Shown here in pieces: positions 1,768 to 21,647 of a stretch of 21,647 bases of DNA. Position 1 is the stretch's first letter. Each line of letters opens with the position of its first letter. The stretch covers positions 1 to 21,647 of IMG/VR virus record IMGVR_UViG_3300035670_001378. One strand, written 5' to 3'. A program made the position numbers and the translations under genes. Under the pieces are notes generated by a model. The model worked only from the letters and a program-made list of their open reading frames with translations. It had not been told where the DNA came from and made no database searches. The DNA is from a virus.

Positions 1768-1896
1768 TCACTTATCCAAATTATTTGTTCTTTTTTTCAA
1801 ATATTTTTTGTCGTGTAGTTTCTTCCATTCTTTGAACCTTTGGAGTTTCATCCATACAAACATCCAGGCTTCGAGGGGCATACGTTCTTTATTCAT
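1768..1896 (-). CDS. Small basic tryptophan-rich protein, 42 aa, coupled to helicase
   Basis: The ATG at 1896 overlaps the helicase TGA stop in an ATGA arrangement, a common sign of translational coupling. The product contains four methionines and three tryptophans in its first 25 residues (MPLEAWMFVWMKLQRFKEWK) followed by a very basic tail (KKLHDKKYLKKR). It may be an amphipathic or nucleic-acid-binding helix. Its position suggests a role linked to the helicase, but no family is recognised. Short length is the main reason for caution. Confidence 0.55.
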   Translation of the reverse strand: MNKERMPLEAWMFVWMKLQRFKEWKKLHDKKYLKKRTNNLDK

Positions 1897-3221
1897 AGTA
1901 GTTGTTGATTATCGGTGTCTATAATTATTTCTGAGGGGTTATATTTGAAGTTTTTTACTTCAGCCAATACCCCGTGTCTATTTTTGGTTATCTTCATCGT
2001 AGCGGTATTATTTTCCTTTTGTGTTTCATTCCTTGTTAAGAATACAACCATAGATGCTTTATCGAGTTTTTTCTTTGAACCAGCAACTTGTGAGTTGTTG
2101 CCGTCCTCACCATTCAAACCAGTTCTATTTGTTTGAACTGCAGTCCACACAACAATATTATTATCAACAGCATACTTCTCAAGTTCGTTGACTACATCTG
2201 ACTCACCCTGCCAAAAATCACGGAATTTATTATTTGATTTAATACAATCCAAATAATCTATTACAACTACATCTATTCCATCTATAGACTTCTTTGTCTT
2301 TTCAATTGCACCAATTACATCTGATATTGTTGTTTCCCCTTCAGGTAGTTTAGCGATTTTCAAATAATCCTTTAGATGTACCAAATTTGAACTCAAACGC
2401 TCCGTGCCTAACTTCCTATTGTGCAGCTCGAGTTGTCGGTTCAAATCCCCTTCAAAAATGATATGGAGGACTTTATTCTTATCTTGTGCCATCTCTGATG
2501 CAATATGCGTCAAACACGTTGACTTTCCCACACCTGTTGGAGCGATGACTATACCCATCTCGCCCCTCGCAATCCCTCCATTTTCATCTATTAAAGATAT
2601 CTTCGTTGGAATGGTATTTCTCTTTTTATTTTTATCATAATCAAAAATATCAAATAGTTGAACGTCCATACCACCAACATCATTACTTTCGTAATAATGT
2701 ATTCTCCTCAATAGTCTGCCCCTCTCTTTACTCTTCGGGTTGTTGGATAAGTAATTTTCTATTCTTTCAATCAACTCCTGTTTGAAGATATCTTCGATAA
2801 ATTTCTTTGTCTTTGGAATGTGTAGTTTCACCTGCTCCAAGAAATCCTCAATAACCTTATACTGATGAATATATCTCTTATTCCCTTCAGAGTCAGTTAT
2901 AGTACCATTCTTTTGTATTTCAATAAATATCTGGCTAAATGATGGAACATCATTATGTTGAATCCAGAACTCCTTAATTATCTGCAGTACAAACTTGAAT
3001 GATTTATCATTTGGAATATAGAAATCCAAATCATCTTTATACTTAACATAAAACCCCTCTGATTGAATTATTAGATAACACAACTCATAATCATATATTT
3101 TATCCTTTGAGTCATCCATTTTAACCTCGAACTTCTTAAGTAAGTTTTCTGCATTTTCTTTCAAATGCTCTTCATAAGGTATACCATATACCTCTTCGTG
3201 TGTTGAAATTATTTTTTCCAT
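1893..3221 (-). CDS. DnaB-type replicative DNA helicase
   Basis: 442 residues. The N-terminal half (about 1-200) is helical and corresponds loosely to the DnaB N-terminal and linker regions, here divergent. The C-terminal RecA-like core has Walker A APTGVGKST (227-235), a Walker B strand VVVIDYLD (318-325), the motif H3 glutamine in AVQTNR (363), and a basic KNRHG (413-417) in the arginine-finger area. This is the SF4 hexameric helicase pattern; it should unwind phage DNA at the fork using ATP. No primase, polymerase or loader was recognised, so host enzymes likely complete the fork, with the neighbouring winged-helix protein as a possible initiator or loader. A very long hairpin lies directly upstream of its start. 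Confidence 0.9.
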   Translation of the reverse strand: MEKIISTHEEVYGIPYEEHLKENAENLLKKFEVKMDDSKDKIYDYELCYLIIQSEGFYVKYKDDLDFYIPNDKSFKFVLQIIKEFWIQHNDVPSFSQIFIEIQKNGTITDSEGNKRYIHQYKVIEDFLEQVKLHIPKTKKFIEDIFKQELIERIENYLSNNPKSKERGRLLRRIHYYESNDVGGMDVQLFDIFDYDKNKKRNTIPTKISLIDENGGIARGEMGIVIAPTGVGKSTCLTHIASEMAQDKNKVLHIIFEGDLNRQLELHNRKLGTERLSSNLVHLKDYLKIAKLPEGETTISDVIGAIEKTKKSIDGIDVVVIDYLDCIKSNNKFRDFWQGESDVVNELEKYAVDNNIVVWTAVQTNRTGLNGEDGNNSQVAGSKKKLDKASMVVFLTRNETQKENNTATMKITKNRHGVLAEVKNFKYNPSEIIIDTDNQQLL

Positions 3222-3246
3222 TTTTCTTTTGAATTTAGTGATTACA

Positions 3247-3339
3247 AAAATTGGAGTGGTGATGGGGGTGAACTCTATACCCCCTTTTCAAGAGGGGGTA
3301 TTAGAGTTGGATACACCCCCTCACATACACTTCAATTTT
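3247..3339. other. 93-nt extended imperfect hairpin, origin or attenuator candidate
   Basis: Three stacked stems fold on one axis. The outer stem pairs 3247-3258 with 3328-3339 (12 pairs, one G-T). The middle stem pairs 3259-3270 with 3314-3324 (11 pairs, one bulged T at 3263). The inner stem pairs 3271-3285 with 3293-3308 (15 pairs, one bulged T at 3301). Interruptions are short: 3309-3313, the bulge 3325-3327, and a 7-nt loop. It sits in the 185-base gap between the winged-helix gene and the helicase. On the minus strand the outer stem is followed by TTTTTG, so termination or attenuation before the helicase is also possible. Confidence 0.7.
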
Positions 3340-3400
3340 ATCATCTTAAGTTTTTTTTATTTTTAATTTTTTATTATATATTATTGGATATAATATAGTA
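3340..3400. other. AT-rich tract beside the long hairpin
   Basis: Almost pure A+T with several T runs and a 7-bp dyad ATTATAT / ATATAAT (3373-3379 with 3388-3394). It lies between the hairpin and the winged-helix gene. It could be a DNA-unwinding element, but AT-rich leaders are general in this genome. No clear iterons were seen. Confidence 0.4.
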
Positions 3401-3406
3401 CCACAT

Positions 3407-3703
3407 TTAGAGGTGCTGTGATTTACTTTTTGTTAGACTTTTAGGTGTCTTCTTTTTCGTTATACCTAAATACCTAACTCTATTATTCTTCGTAAAATTT
3501 CTATAGATATATCCGTCATCTTCCAACGACTTTAACTTCCTTTGAATAGTCATAACCGAACAACCTAAAACGTGAGAGAGTAGTTCGTTGGACGCATAAC
3601 ATTCACCCTTCCAACCGAGTATGTAAGAATATATAAGGTTCTTATACACATCATTAAAACCCCAGTCTTTATAGACTATATAAAACTCTTTTTTATCATT
3701 CAT
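3407..3703 (-). CDS. Winged-helix DNA-binding protein, possible replication initiator or helicase loader
   Basis: 98 residues. Residues about 36-72 (ASNELLSHVLGCSVMTIQRK, then LKSLEDDGYIYRN) give a helix-turn-helix and wing typical of the HTH_36 / DnaD-N style domains found in phage and plasmid replication proteins. The C-terminal tail is strongly basic (TKKKTPKSLTKSKS). The start overlaps the end of the upstream gene by 8 bases, so the two are cotranscribed. Its place next to the long hairpin, AT tract and helicase suggests origin binding. A transcription-regulator role is equally compatible with the sequence. Confidence 0.75.
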   Translation of the reverse strand: MNDKKEFYIVYKDWGFNDVYKNLIYSYILGWKGECYASNELLSHVLGCSVMTIQRKLKSLEDDGYIYRNFTKNNRVRYLGITKKKTPKSLTKSKSQHL

Positions 3704-4154
3704 TAGTGATACAAGATTTCGGGTTTAGAATTGTTTGGTTATCGCTGATGTATACAAACACTCTATTTAACGTTTTTCCACCCCGCATTTTCATTAAAAC
3801 CTTATGGGCTAACTCCTCATATTCCTCATACTCTTTGAAGGTCGTAAACGTGAGATAAATGTTTTTCTGTGCATTCTTGTAAATCGTTGGGAAATATGTC
3901 TCAAAATTATACCACAAATTTGTTAACTCGATATTCAAGTTAGAACCAGACCATACCTCAACTTTATTACTGATGTAAATGTCCTCATCCCAAGAGACAT
4001 TCTCAAACACATTCTTAAGACTATAGTAGTCTCTAATATGTTTACGTGCATACTCGTTGATTACTTCACTCATTTTAAGTCCCTGAAGCTTACAGACTTT
4101 TTTGAACTCCTCGTGAGTGATTTCACTCATCTTAACATTAGCATTGTTGTTCAT
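3696..4154 (-). CDS. Hypothetical protein with ribbon-helix-helix-like N-terminus
   Basis: 152 residues. Residues about 7-42 (VKMSEITHEEFKKVCKLQGL, then MSEVINEYARKHIR) read as a short strand and two helices, as in ribbon-helix-helix DNA-binding proteins. The remainder is mixed alpha/beta and unrecognised. It is the first gene of the replication block, preceded by a good promoter-like site (4197-4226) and a 17-base dyad at the expected transcription start. That arrangement suggests autoregulation, with the protein as repressor of its own operon, but binding is inferred from position only. The leader has AAGG before the ATG, one of the few Shine-Dalgarno-like signals here. Confidence 0.65.
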   Translation of the reverse strand: MNNNANVKMSEITHEEFKKVCKLQGLKMSEVINEYARKHIRDYYSLKNVFENVSWDEDIYISNKVEVWSGSNLNIELTNLWYNFETYFPTIYKNAQKNIYLTFTTFKEYEEYEELAHKVLMKMRGGKTLNRVFVYISDNQTILNPKSCITNE

Positions 4155-4176
4155 TTTACCTTGATTTTAATTTATT

Positions 4177-4193
4177 ATGTGGACTTTCCACAT
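4177..4193. promoter_or_regulatory. Operator-like dyad at the early promoter start site
   Basis: Perfect inverted repeat ATGTGGA / TCCACAT with a 3-nt centre. It begins four bases downstream of the TATATTTA box, so it covers the expected transcription start. It could be an operator for the ribbon-helix-helix-like protein just downstream, or a 5' mRNA hairpin. Confidence 0.5.
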
Positions 4194-4196
4194 CCA

Positions 4197-4226
4197 TAAA
4201 TATAGAACTATTTTAGTAAAAGTCAA
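4197..4226 (-). promoter_or_regulatory. Early promoter candidate for the replication block
   Basis: Minus-strand TTGACTT, with exactly 19 bases between TTG (4226-4224) and TATATTTA (4204-4197). It matches the Bacteroidota TTG/TAnnTTTG spacing and lies just after two terminators, 42 bases before the ATG at 4154. Confidence 0.55.
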
Positions 4227-4257
4227 AGAAATAGTATCTTTTTTTTTAATGGGTAAG

Positions 4258-4289
4258 AAAAAACCCCTTACTCCGTTGAATAAGGGGTT
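4258..4289 (-). terminator. Intrinsic terminator, second of a tandem pair
   Basis: 9-bp perfect stem AACCCCTTA / TAAGGGGTT (4262-4270 with 4281-4289), 10-nt loop, followed on the minus strand by TTTTTTC. It separates the late region from the early promoter at 4197-4226. Confidence 0.85.
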
Positions 4290-4342
4290 ATAATAAAGTA
4301 AAAACAATTGAGATAAAATGGGACTTCTATCTATAAAGCACG

Positions 4343-4377
4343 AAAAACCCCGAAGACTTTTACATCCATCGGGGCTT
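4343..4377 (-). terminator. Intrinsic terminator, first of a tandem pair
   Basis: Stem AAGCCCCGA / TCGGGGTTT on the minus strand (one G-T pair) with a 15-nt loop and a T tract ending TTTTTCG. It is downstream of the holin-like gene and closes the late transcript. Confidence 0.75.
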
Positions 4378-4408
4378 CTCACTTATTCAAAAGACAAATA
4401 CTATGATA
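4343..4408 (-). ncRNA. Possible short RNA from an orphan promoter
   Basis: A promoter-like site (4415-4445) points into a gap with no credible gene and meets an intrinsic terminator about 65 bases later. A transcript starting near 4408 and ending near 4343 would be a small hairpin-ended RNA. No homology or conserved structure beyond the terminator is visible. It may instead be only a booster promoter reading through into the early block. Confidence 0.3.
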
Positions 4409-4414
4409 ATACTA

Positions 4415-4445
4415 TAAATATATTACAAGATTTACTTGAAGTCAA
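4415..4445 (-). promoter_or_regulatory. Promoter-like site after the holin gene
   Basis: Minus-strand TTGACTT overlapping the holin stop codon, a 20-base spacer from TTG, then TATATTTA (4422-4415). It shares TTGACTT and TATATTTAT with the site at 4197-4226, which makes chance less likely, yet no gene follows before the terminators. Confidence 0.4.
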
Positions 4446-4609
4446 CTATTACTCCTCTTAACCCAATAACTCCAAACAAAACCTGATAATGTAATTATAG
4501 CTCCAACGAGGGCTTCTACCTCACTCGTTTCAACATAACCCTTTGTCACCAGTAAACCACCTGCAAACGTTAATGCGTGTCTTAAAAATCCTTTTAATTG
4601 TTCGTTCAT
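4442..4609 (-). CDS. Holin candidate, 55 aa
   Basis: Starts at ATG 4609 (MNEQLKGFLRHALTFAGGLL); an upstream in-frame ATG at 4657 would add 16 residues but overlaps the end of the fibre gene. The product has two hydrophobic segments, about 9-20 and 30-47, separated by a short turn (KGYVETSEVE), and a basic end (YWVKRSNS). The pattern L-R-H/W..LT..G-G, K-G-Y-V, A-L-V-G-A resembles small two-helix phage holins of the Pam3-gp28 type. It would form lesions in the inner membrane at lysis. Location at the end of the late region supports this. No endolysin is next to it, which is unusual. Confidence 0.55.
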   Translation of the reverse strand: MNEQLKGFLRHALTFAGGLLVTKGYVETSEVEALVGAIITLSGFVWSYWVKRSNS

Positions 4610-4623
4610 AATACTAAATATAA

Positions 4624-6060
4624 TTAACCAAAATCTGCGTGATATCTTACATAACACGTATCTGTACTAAATACATCAAACACAAATAAATCGGTTGAGT
4701 TATGTGTTATAGTTGGAAGTCCATTAGTTTCATATTTGAAGGTATAACCTGTTGCTGTTATACTTGATATGGAATGTGAACCCCCATTATTCATATACAA
4801 CATATATGTTCCACCAGGTTTTAGATTATCCAACGTAATCGAAGTATTACCCGTTAAGTTTATTCTTTGAAGATTACCTCTATTCCAATCTATTGTCTGT
4901 GTTGTACCTGAACCACTATCATAAAAGTTTCCTGATGTTTGTCCTGATATTTTAAGGTTCTGTACCAACACTTGATTATCTTCGTTTGTAGTTAAACCAC
5001 TACCACCTATAATAACACTTCTATCGTAATTATTTGTATTATTTGAACCACCAACTATAACACTTTCTGTTGCACCTGATATATCATTATTAACACCGGC
5101 GAAAATACCAGAATTATCAGTAGTACCTGATATATGGTTAGTATTTCCACCAACTACTGCACTCCATCTACCTGACGAATATATCCTATTACTTTGTCCT
5201 CCTGCAATAAATGAGTAAGTTGAACCTGAATATATTTCTGCATATTGTCCTCCAACTATAACTGAAAAATTACCAAATATACTATTATTTGCTCCACCGA
5301 TAATTGAAGTGTGTGTTGCTCCTGATAATAAATTAGTTCCACCACCACCAATAAAACCATTTGTTGATGATGATATAATATCATTTTCACTACCACCAAC
5401 TATACTTGACCTGGTAGAAGCTATATAATTCAAATATCCAGAACCTATAAAATTGTAATCACCTGATGCTATTTGTGCGAATTCACCAGTAACTATACCA
5501 TTTCTTGCTCCTGCGATTTTAGGGTATCTACCAGATAAAGTCGCATTCATACCTTCACCACCCGTAATTTCACTTTGATTACCCGCTATTAAAACATTAC
5601 AATAACCAGCAGAAAGATTATTTCCTGTTCCACCTAATATAATATTTAATCCAGTATTACCACCTATAGTGTTAGAATTTCGTGCTCCAAAAATAGAAGC
5701 ACCATTACCTGTAATATCACAATTTAATCCACCAACTATTGCTCCTGCTGAACCTGCAGATATTAAATGATCTTGCCCACCAACAATAACATTATCAGCA
5801 ACTGCCGATGTTGTAATTGTATTACCCGTTCCAGCTAATATTAAACTCCTTGTTGAAGCTGTATTTATTACTGATGTCGCATAATAATCACTTACAATAT
5901 TATTAGTACCATTTGCTTTAATAACAGGACTGGCACCACTTAATAGTGTTGAAACTTTAATTTTACTTGTTGTAGTATTTCCACTATCAACAATTGCCAA
6001 CACATCATCATTTGTCTTTCCAGTCTGTTCTGGAAGTTGAAAAATTGTTTTATTAGCCAT
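4624..6060 (-). CDS. Tail fibre / adhesin with GGxxN beta-roll repeats
   Basis: 478 residues. The N-terminal 45 or so (MANKTIFQLPEQTGKTNDDV...) look like a virion-attachment segment. From about 65 to 370 there are some 15 imperfect repeats of 17-20 residues with the core S-x-I-V/I-G-G-x-x-N-x-I, as in SIVGGSEND, SIIGGANNSI and SVIVGGQYAE. Such repeats form left-handed beta-rolls in YadA-type trimeric adhesins and in some phage fibres. The final 100 residues (NLQRINLTGNTSITLDNLKP onward) resemble fibre tip or trimerisation domains. It probably binds the host surface. It starts one base after the preceding gene's stop. Trimeric assembly is inferred. Confidence 0.7.
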   Translation of the reverse strand: MANKTIFQLPEQTGKTNDDVLAIVDSGNTTTSKIKVSTLLSGASPVIKANGTNNIVSDYYATSVINTASTRSLILAGTGNTITTSAVADNVIVGGQDHLISAGSAGAIVGGLNCDITGNGASIFGARNSNTIGGNTGLNIILGGTGNNLSAGYCNVLIAGNQSEITGGEGMNATLSGRYPKIAGARNGIVTGEFAQIASGDYNFIGSGYLNYIASTRSSIVGGSENDIISSSTNGFIGGGGTNLLSGATHTSIIGGANNSIFGNFSVIVGGQYAEIYSGSTYSFIAGGQSNRIYSSGRWSAVVGGNTNHISGTTDNSGIFAGVNNDISGATESVIVGGSNNTNNYDRSVIIGGSGLTTNEDNQVLVQNLKISGQTSGNFYDSGSGTTQTIDWNRGNLQRINLTGNTSITLDNLKPGGTYMLYMNNGGSHSISSITATGYTFKYETNGLPTITHNSTDLFVFDVFSTDTCYVRYHADFG

Positions 6061-21432: not shown

Positions 21433-21647
21433 TTAAAAATATAATTTTTGGAAGTAGTGATATTTTTGTGCTATACACGAACCACATCCTTTTGGTTTTT
21501 CATTTGTCCCGTTGAAGTAGTTAAATATCTCATATACCATATTATTATTTTCAGGGGTTCTCATACTCGTGTTGAAAAATATAGCTTGGTTGTCTCGTAT
21601 CCACTTTTCGTATATCATCTTCTTCTCATCATCTGTTGGTTTTTTTA
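21433..21647 (-). CDS. C-terminal part of the sigma-like protein (second allele)
   Basis: Open frame entering from the window edge and ending at TAA 21435-21433. It matches the C-terminus of the frame at 1-740 and continues it by 15 residues to SCIAQKYHYFQKLYF. The block NNMVYEIFNYFNGTNEKPKG followed by CGSC resembles small CGSC proteins that occur on their own near terminase genes in Bacteroidota phages, as I recall. Compared with the left copy there is a Pro-to-Asp change and an Asn-to-Lys change near the edge; the other differences are synonymous. An ATG at 21618 could allow separate translation of 61 residues, but the frame is open beyond it. Confidence 0.7.
   Translation of the reverse strand, partial: KKPTDDEKKMIYEKWIRDNQAIFFNTSMRTPENNNMVYEIFNYFNGTNEKPKGCGSCIAQKYHYFQKLYF
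21479..21647. repeat. Near-identical terminal overlap, right copy
   Basis: Partner of bases 1-169. The divergence lies only in the last 44 bases and is mostly synonymous, as expected of two related strains rather than sequencing noise. Confidence 0.9.

Follow-up and report, generated by a model that had tools for sequence, protein, structure and literature searches.

A conserved bulged hairpin between the winged-helix and helicase genes of a small tailed phage, a candidate replication origin

An 89-nt bulged hairpin was found between the gene of an initiator-like winged-helix protein (3407-3703) and that of a T4 gp41-like replicative helicase (1893-3221) in the viral record IMGVR_UViG_3300035670_001378, which was analysed over its whole length of 21,647 nt (the window). 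All four genomes with this winged-helix and gp41-like DnaB gene pair (the window and its relatives L002, L007 and L015) had the hairpin at the same place, and between the two genes the order was fixed: a dyad, an A/T-rich tract and the bulged hairpin. The reading that we favour, and to which we give an even chance, is that the hairpin is the phage replication origin or its core, acting at the DNA level.

Genome and gene context

The window represents a small tailed-phage genome, with every identified gene on the minus strand. It has terminase, portal, protease, capsid-like and holin genes and a short replication block (Table 1). At about 21.5 kb, the genome probably is circular or has terminal redundancy, with assembly or population variation, because the record ends share a 169-base repeat (positions 1-169 and 21479-21647), with six mismatches clustered towards one repeat end.

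Table 1 Features of the window discussed in the text, with the evidence for each.
Feature	Position	Strand	Evidence or remark
Conserved bulged hairpin core, 89 nt	3249..3337	-	Arms 3294-3337 and 3249-3284, apical loop 3285-3293; folds and four-genome structural alignment
3-nt bulge TAT (consensus TRT)	3325..3327	-	TAT, TAT, TAT and TGT in the four genomes
5-nt bulge TATCC (consensus WATCC)	3309..3313	-	Same arm as the first bulge, 10-11 bp away
A of the conserved A.C mismatch	3332	-	Partner C at 3254; identical in 4/4 genomes
A/T-rich tract with its A's mainly on the gene strand; putative DNA unwinding element	3338..3397	.	Lowest duplex stability of any 60 bp in the window
Small dyad TATTAT-N5-ATAATA, which a dimeric regulator or initiator might bind	3379..3395	.	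Single match in the window
DnaB-type replicative helicase, T4 gp41-like, 442 aa	1893..3221	-	DnaB_C E 5e-16; phrog_19 E 3e-47; T4 gp41 chains best
Winged-helix protein, 98 aa, like the N-terminal DNA-binding domain of phage replication initiators/DnaD	3407..3703	-	HTH_36 E 7e-9; PHROG replication-initiation families
152-aa protein, possible ribbon-helix-helix N-terminus	3696..4154	-	Inspection and sub-threshold ParG match
Sigma-factor-like protein	3-740, continuing at 21433-21645	-	phrog_1740, E 1.5e-6

The winged-helix protein matched PHROG replication-initiation families in all four members. Its top fold match, a weak one, was a RepA-type initiator (RepA-DNA complex 5kbj); confidence in the AlphaFold models was modest (pLDDT 66 and 67 for the winged-helix and helicase models), and the fold matches are supporting evidence only. 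By tblastn, the winged-helix protein had no relative among annotated phages, and the search used for the helicase found no relative in genome contigs. None of the window proteins scanned matched a primase family. In L007 and L015, the position of the 152-aa gene is occupied by smaller genes with a similar N-terminus.

Of the ten window genes examined, most had A-rich upstream regions without an evident Shine-Dalgarno sequence, as in Bacteroidota, which is no more than a hint at the host. The sigma-factor-like ORF crosses the junction of the two record ends. This gene lies just upstream of the terminase genes, a neighbourhood also seen in several relatives, and its product may drive the late genes. 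Two promoter-like sites with identical hexamers (TTGACT/TATATT) were seen on the minus strand of the window, at 4445-4417 and 4226-4199, and a 12-bp terminator-like hairpin (4289-4262) lies between them, after the holin gene. The second site may begin the replication operon; promoter matches overall were at chance level, and sigma-70-type matches near the hairpin were no commoner than chance.

Structure of the hairpin

A stacked hairpin of 38 base pairs with small bulges only had been predicted from the sequence at 3247-3339. Folding confirmed it, with the core at 3249-3337, and the pair count was a fair one: the conservative structure has 34 core pairs, or about 37-40 with the flanking and apical pairs added by the folding program. 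The region 3230-3420 folded at -69.9 kcal/mol on the plus strand and at -56.7 kcal/mol on the minus strand, so that both strands, which the original prediction proposed to fold, gave strong structures (z about -7; 0/200 shuffles equalled it). Across the whole window and on either strand, no other local secondary structure was as strong.

On the gene strand, the core reads AATTG, an A.C mismatch, AGTG, the bulge TAT (UAU in RNA), GTGA-GGGGGTG with a bulged A opposite, the bulge TATCC, AACTCTA, a bulged A, TACCCCC, the 9-nt loop and the returning arm. The single bulged A's are at 3263 and 3301. The spacing of the two larger bulges corresponds to about one helical turn, and the A.C mismatch (3332/3254) reads G.T or G.U on the opposite strand. 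No Rfam family reached its gathering score in the window, L002, L007 or L015. The lax Rfam matches were short or unrelated chance matches and were discarded.

Conservation in relatives

A TerL search gave twelve IMG/VR relatives, among which L002 and L007 carry the same gene pair; a third relative contig, L015, was added by helicase profile. A covariance model (R1) trained on the window, L002 and L007, with L015 left out of the training, found L015 at E 8e-7. The remaining TerL relatives had neither a DnaB_C helicase nor the hairpin in their records, several of them fragmentary, with the exception of L008, whose record ends inside the helicase gene and does not cover the hairpin position. Because several of these records are fragments, the absence of the hairpin where the helicase is missing is only suggestive. 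A corrected DNA-motif scan of IMG/VR recovered L002, L007 and L015, plus L052, L053 and L055; the latter three had motif matches, yet did not fold into the structure, and were rejected as hairpin carriers. There was no significant DNA match in annotated phages. Insertion of a mobile element was also rejected, the hairpin having the same position despite flanking proteins that are only 34-59% identical. One TerL relative has a different gene arrangement (L005:6388-9800): there is no DnaB match, and the space from its portal-side genes to the sigma gene holds nothing but small genes and an HNH-like ORF.

The four genomes were structurally aligned by hand, with N for missing bases. Two-sided changes were found in 14 of the 27 aligned pairs and one-sided changes in none, and 106/106 cells held standard pairs (100% paired), percentages that are biased towards the structure because the alignment was fitted to it. 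The covariation score was 0.617; shuffles scored 0.226 ± 0.051 and slid structures no more than 0.123. In stem 2 (AGTG/CACT, ATTG/CAAT, ACTT/AAGT), which invariant bases flank on both sides, the compensation is seen without any fitting. The constant features were the A.C mismatch, the TRT bulge, the GTGA/TCAC helix, and the WATCC bulge with the AA after it. Neither the gene pair without the structure nor uncompensated stem changes, both named in the original prediction as grounds against it, were seen: the hairpin is there in 3/3 relatives, and its stems compensate. As judged from the alignment, this demonstrates that the hairpin is kept by selection. Fixed bulges within stems that turn over look like a shape read by a protein.

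The A/T-rich tract and the dyad

The strongly AT-rich flank that had been predicted beside the hairpin was borne out, with 55 of 60 bases from 3338 being A or T. The least stable 60-bp duplex adjoins the hairpin in the window (start 3337) and in the three relatives (L002 1089; L007 7251; L039 4840, a longer version of the L015 locus). The tract is on the helicase-distal side of the hairpin, and the dyad lies between the tract and the winged-helix gene. For the dyad, one match in the window compares with 0.03 expected, and counterparts occupy the same place in L002 (TATTAC-N4-GTAATA) and in L007 and L015 (TATTAT/ATAATA).

Iteron-type origins combine direct repeats with an A/T-rich unwinding element. 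Here the A/T-rich element is present, and among the repeat families listed there was no direct-repeat array (iterons) near the hairpin. GC skew, another of the checks proposed with the original prediction, did not mark the hairpin: it had no inflection there and was negative almost throughout, tracking the coding strand.

A candidate origin and its alternatives

The origin reading is favoured because a compensated hairpin occurs in all four genomes with this gene pair and R1 finds L015, because the least stable tract and a conserved dyad adjoin the hairpin, because the winged-helix protein matches replication-initiation families and the helicase is gp41-like, and because TerL relatives without this helicase show no hairpin in their records. 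Against it stand the lack of a GC-skew inflection and of iterons near the hairpin, its position inside an apparent operon, so that it is also transcribed, a co-occurrence with the helicase gene that is equally expected for a leader RNA, and a sample of only four genomes, some of them fragmentary.

At such an origin, either the winged-helix protein or its small DNA-binding neighbour would bind the dyad and/or the hairpin, and the adjacent A/T tract, the weakest duplex of the genome, would open. The hairpin would then form as a cruciform or once its strand is exposed as single-stranded DNA. The winged-helix protein, the helicase or the host primase would read its two bulges, which lie on one face, and this reading would position the gp41-like helicase and the first primer. 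Priming would fall to the host primase, because no primase is recognisable in the phage. More tentatively, and with perhaps one chance in three, the element may represent a new class of origin. It would be served by a stand-alone winged-helix protein as initiator together with a gp41-like helicase, would need neither a phage primase nor iterons, and would consist of a single long hairpin, recognised via two fixed bulges one helical turn apart, beside a dedicated unwinding element.

The original prediction had offered a replication origin or initiator target and a structured RNA leader side by side. An element linked to replication is supported by the compensated stems, the fixed bulges, the least stable tract in 4/4 genomes and the initiator-type gene; the choice between a DNA origin and an RNA leader is not settled by the sequence. 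The leader, which we regard as possible though doubtful, would be a fold of the winged-helix/helicase operon transcript ahead of the helicase start, where the helicase or the winged-helix protein would bind the bulges and repress or adjust translation. Conserved bulges are typical of protein-binding RNAs, and they are conserved here; the hairpin is within the apparent operon transcript, the gene-strand RNA folds strongly, and the core lies 14-27 nt upstream of the proposed helicase ATG in all four genomes (27 nt in the window). There is also the precedent of the T4 DNA polymerase gp43, which binds an RNA operator whose hairpin stands about 40 nt ahead of its own start codon (PMC3014915). However, none of the 121 gene-strand pairs in the four genomes is G.U, a count that rests on few independent lineages. 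Such an absence is unusual in an RNA helix that has changed so much, and together with the mismatch that reads G.T on the opposite strand it suits DNA no less than it does gene-strand RNA. For L007, the best gene-strand fold departs from the conserved shape and the opposite strand retains it; on that strand a single continuous shape is common to the four sequences. The missing G.U pairs, the A.C mismatch that becomes G.T or G.U and the other fold preferred by L007 make us lean towards a hairpin that acts as DNA, or through the opposite strand; in four related sequences, this is not proof. A least stable tract next to the hairpin is predicted for an unwinding element and would not be required for a leader RNA. 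Nor does the leader account for the constant position of tract and dyad on the far side.

Known phage RNase III sites are comparable in kind to a long irregular hairpin between genes of one apparent operon, as found here, and cleavage of the duplex could separate the winged-helix mRNA from the helicase mRNA. This is unlikely: the enzyme does not generally need fixed bulge sequences such as TRT and WATCC, nowhere else in the window does a similar hairpin stand out, and the neighbouring A/T tract and dyad would be unexplained. Simple termination had already been held the weaker explanation on the basis of a five-base T run after the hairpin on the minus strand, and this judgment was upheld. The run is there in the window, after a strong GC-containing hairpin, and some 10-20 nt past the hairpin there is a T-rich tract on the opposite strand. 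Yet in the gene direction no T-run follows in L007 and L015, and the terminator scan of 1800-5000 found one ordinary 12-bp terminator-like site (4289-4262) and did not score the hairpin. Read the other way, the hairpin has no credible gene ahead of it, and a gap separates the stem from the T-rich tract. Since fixed bulges would also be superfluous for termination, an intrinsic terminator or attenuator is very unlikely. Least probable of all, to the point of being hardly credible, is an inverted repeat without function, whose perfection is maintained by template switching as the phage replicates. Template switching can yield paired changes in hairpin arms, so the paired arm changes could come about in this way, but it would erase the bulges and the mismatch, which keep their place and sequence in 4/4 genomes while the stems turn over.

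Comparison with known systems

The crenarchaeal plasmid pRN1 requires a 100-nt stem-loop for replication, whose sequence diverges under a constant structure; for Bordetella phage BIP-1, the proposed origin is a stem-loop of similar kind next to its replication gene (PMC4234260). Our hairpin resembles both in being a stem-loop of roughly 100 nt beside replication genes, with conserved structure and diverged interior sequence (here four genomes, 14/27 pairs compensated), and in the company of a winged-helix domain, a hexameric helicase and a small regulator gene in the same operon. In pRN1 and BIP-1, however, one protein combines an archaeo-eukaryotic primase, an SF3 helicase and a winged helix, and the stem-loop is 3' of its gene, whereas here the winged-helix and gp41/DnaB-type proteins are separate, no primase was recognised, and hairpin and A/T tract share the space between the two genes; homology was not detected. 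By analogy, the pRN1 stem-loop origin appears closest in working; judged by the proteins, the hairpin is not a member of the pRN1/BIP-1 family.

The oriV of RSF1010 has ssiA on one strand and ssiB on the other, two sites of about 40 nt that each contain a 21-nt hairpin and are recognised by the plasmid primase RepB' (PMC4434180; PMC4234260). The likeness is a functional analogy of initiator, hexameric helicase and strand-exposed hairpin. Unlike the RSF1010 arrangement of an ssi pair, RepB' and iterons, there is one 89-nt hairpin here, with no cognate primase and no iterons.

Among RNA elements, the translational operators of the T4 and RB69 DNA polymerase gene 43 are hairpins of 16-18 nt with a conserved loop (PMC3014915). 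Our hairpin is much longer (89 nt), a point against the leader, and has a variable loop, conserved bulges and a conserved A/T tract upstream. It also recalls the ssNA-helicase motif, absent from the list of lax Rfam matches, which is reportedly a structured element, a candidate RNA or ssDNA, ahead of helicase genes; in both cases the structure is conserved, precedes helicase genes and may act as RNA or as DNA.

Few uncultured phages have a known origin, and origins of the structured, non-iteron kind have rarely been documented. A compact and recognisable element that moves with a given initiator/helicase pair would, if the origin reading is true, provide this phage group with a testable origin and stem-loop origins with a second protein context. 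Acting as RNA instead, the hairpin would represent a new family of regulatory RNAs that control a replicative helicase.

L007 (L007:7185-7247) and L015 (L015:3775-3837) have a second structured element, which overlaps their winged-helix gene at its end; neither the window nor L002 shows it evidently. It reads GGAACA...GGGGGGACAT...ATCCACCC...TGTTCC and has one apparent compensatory pair change, ACA/TGT to ATA/TAT.
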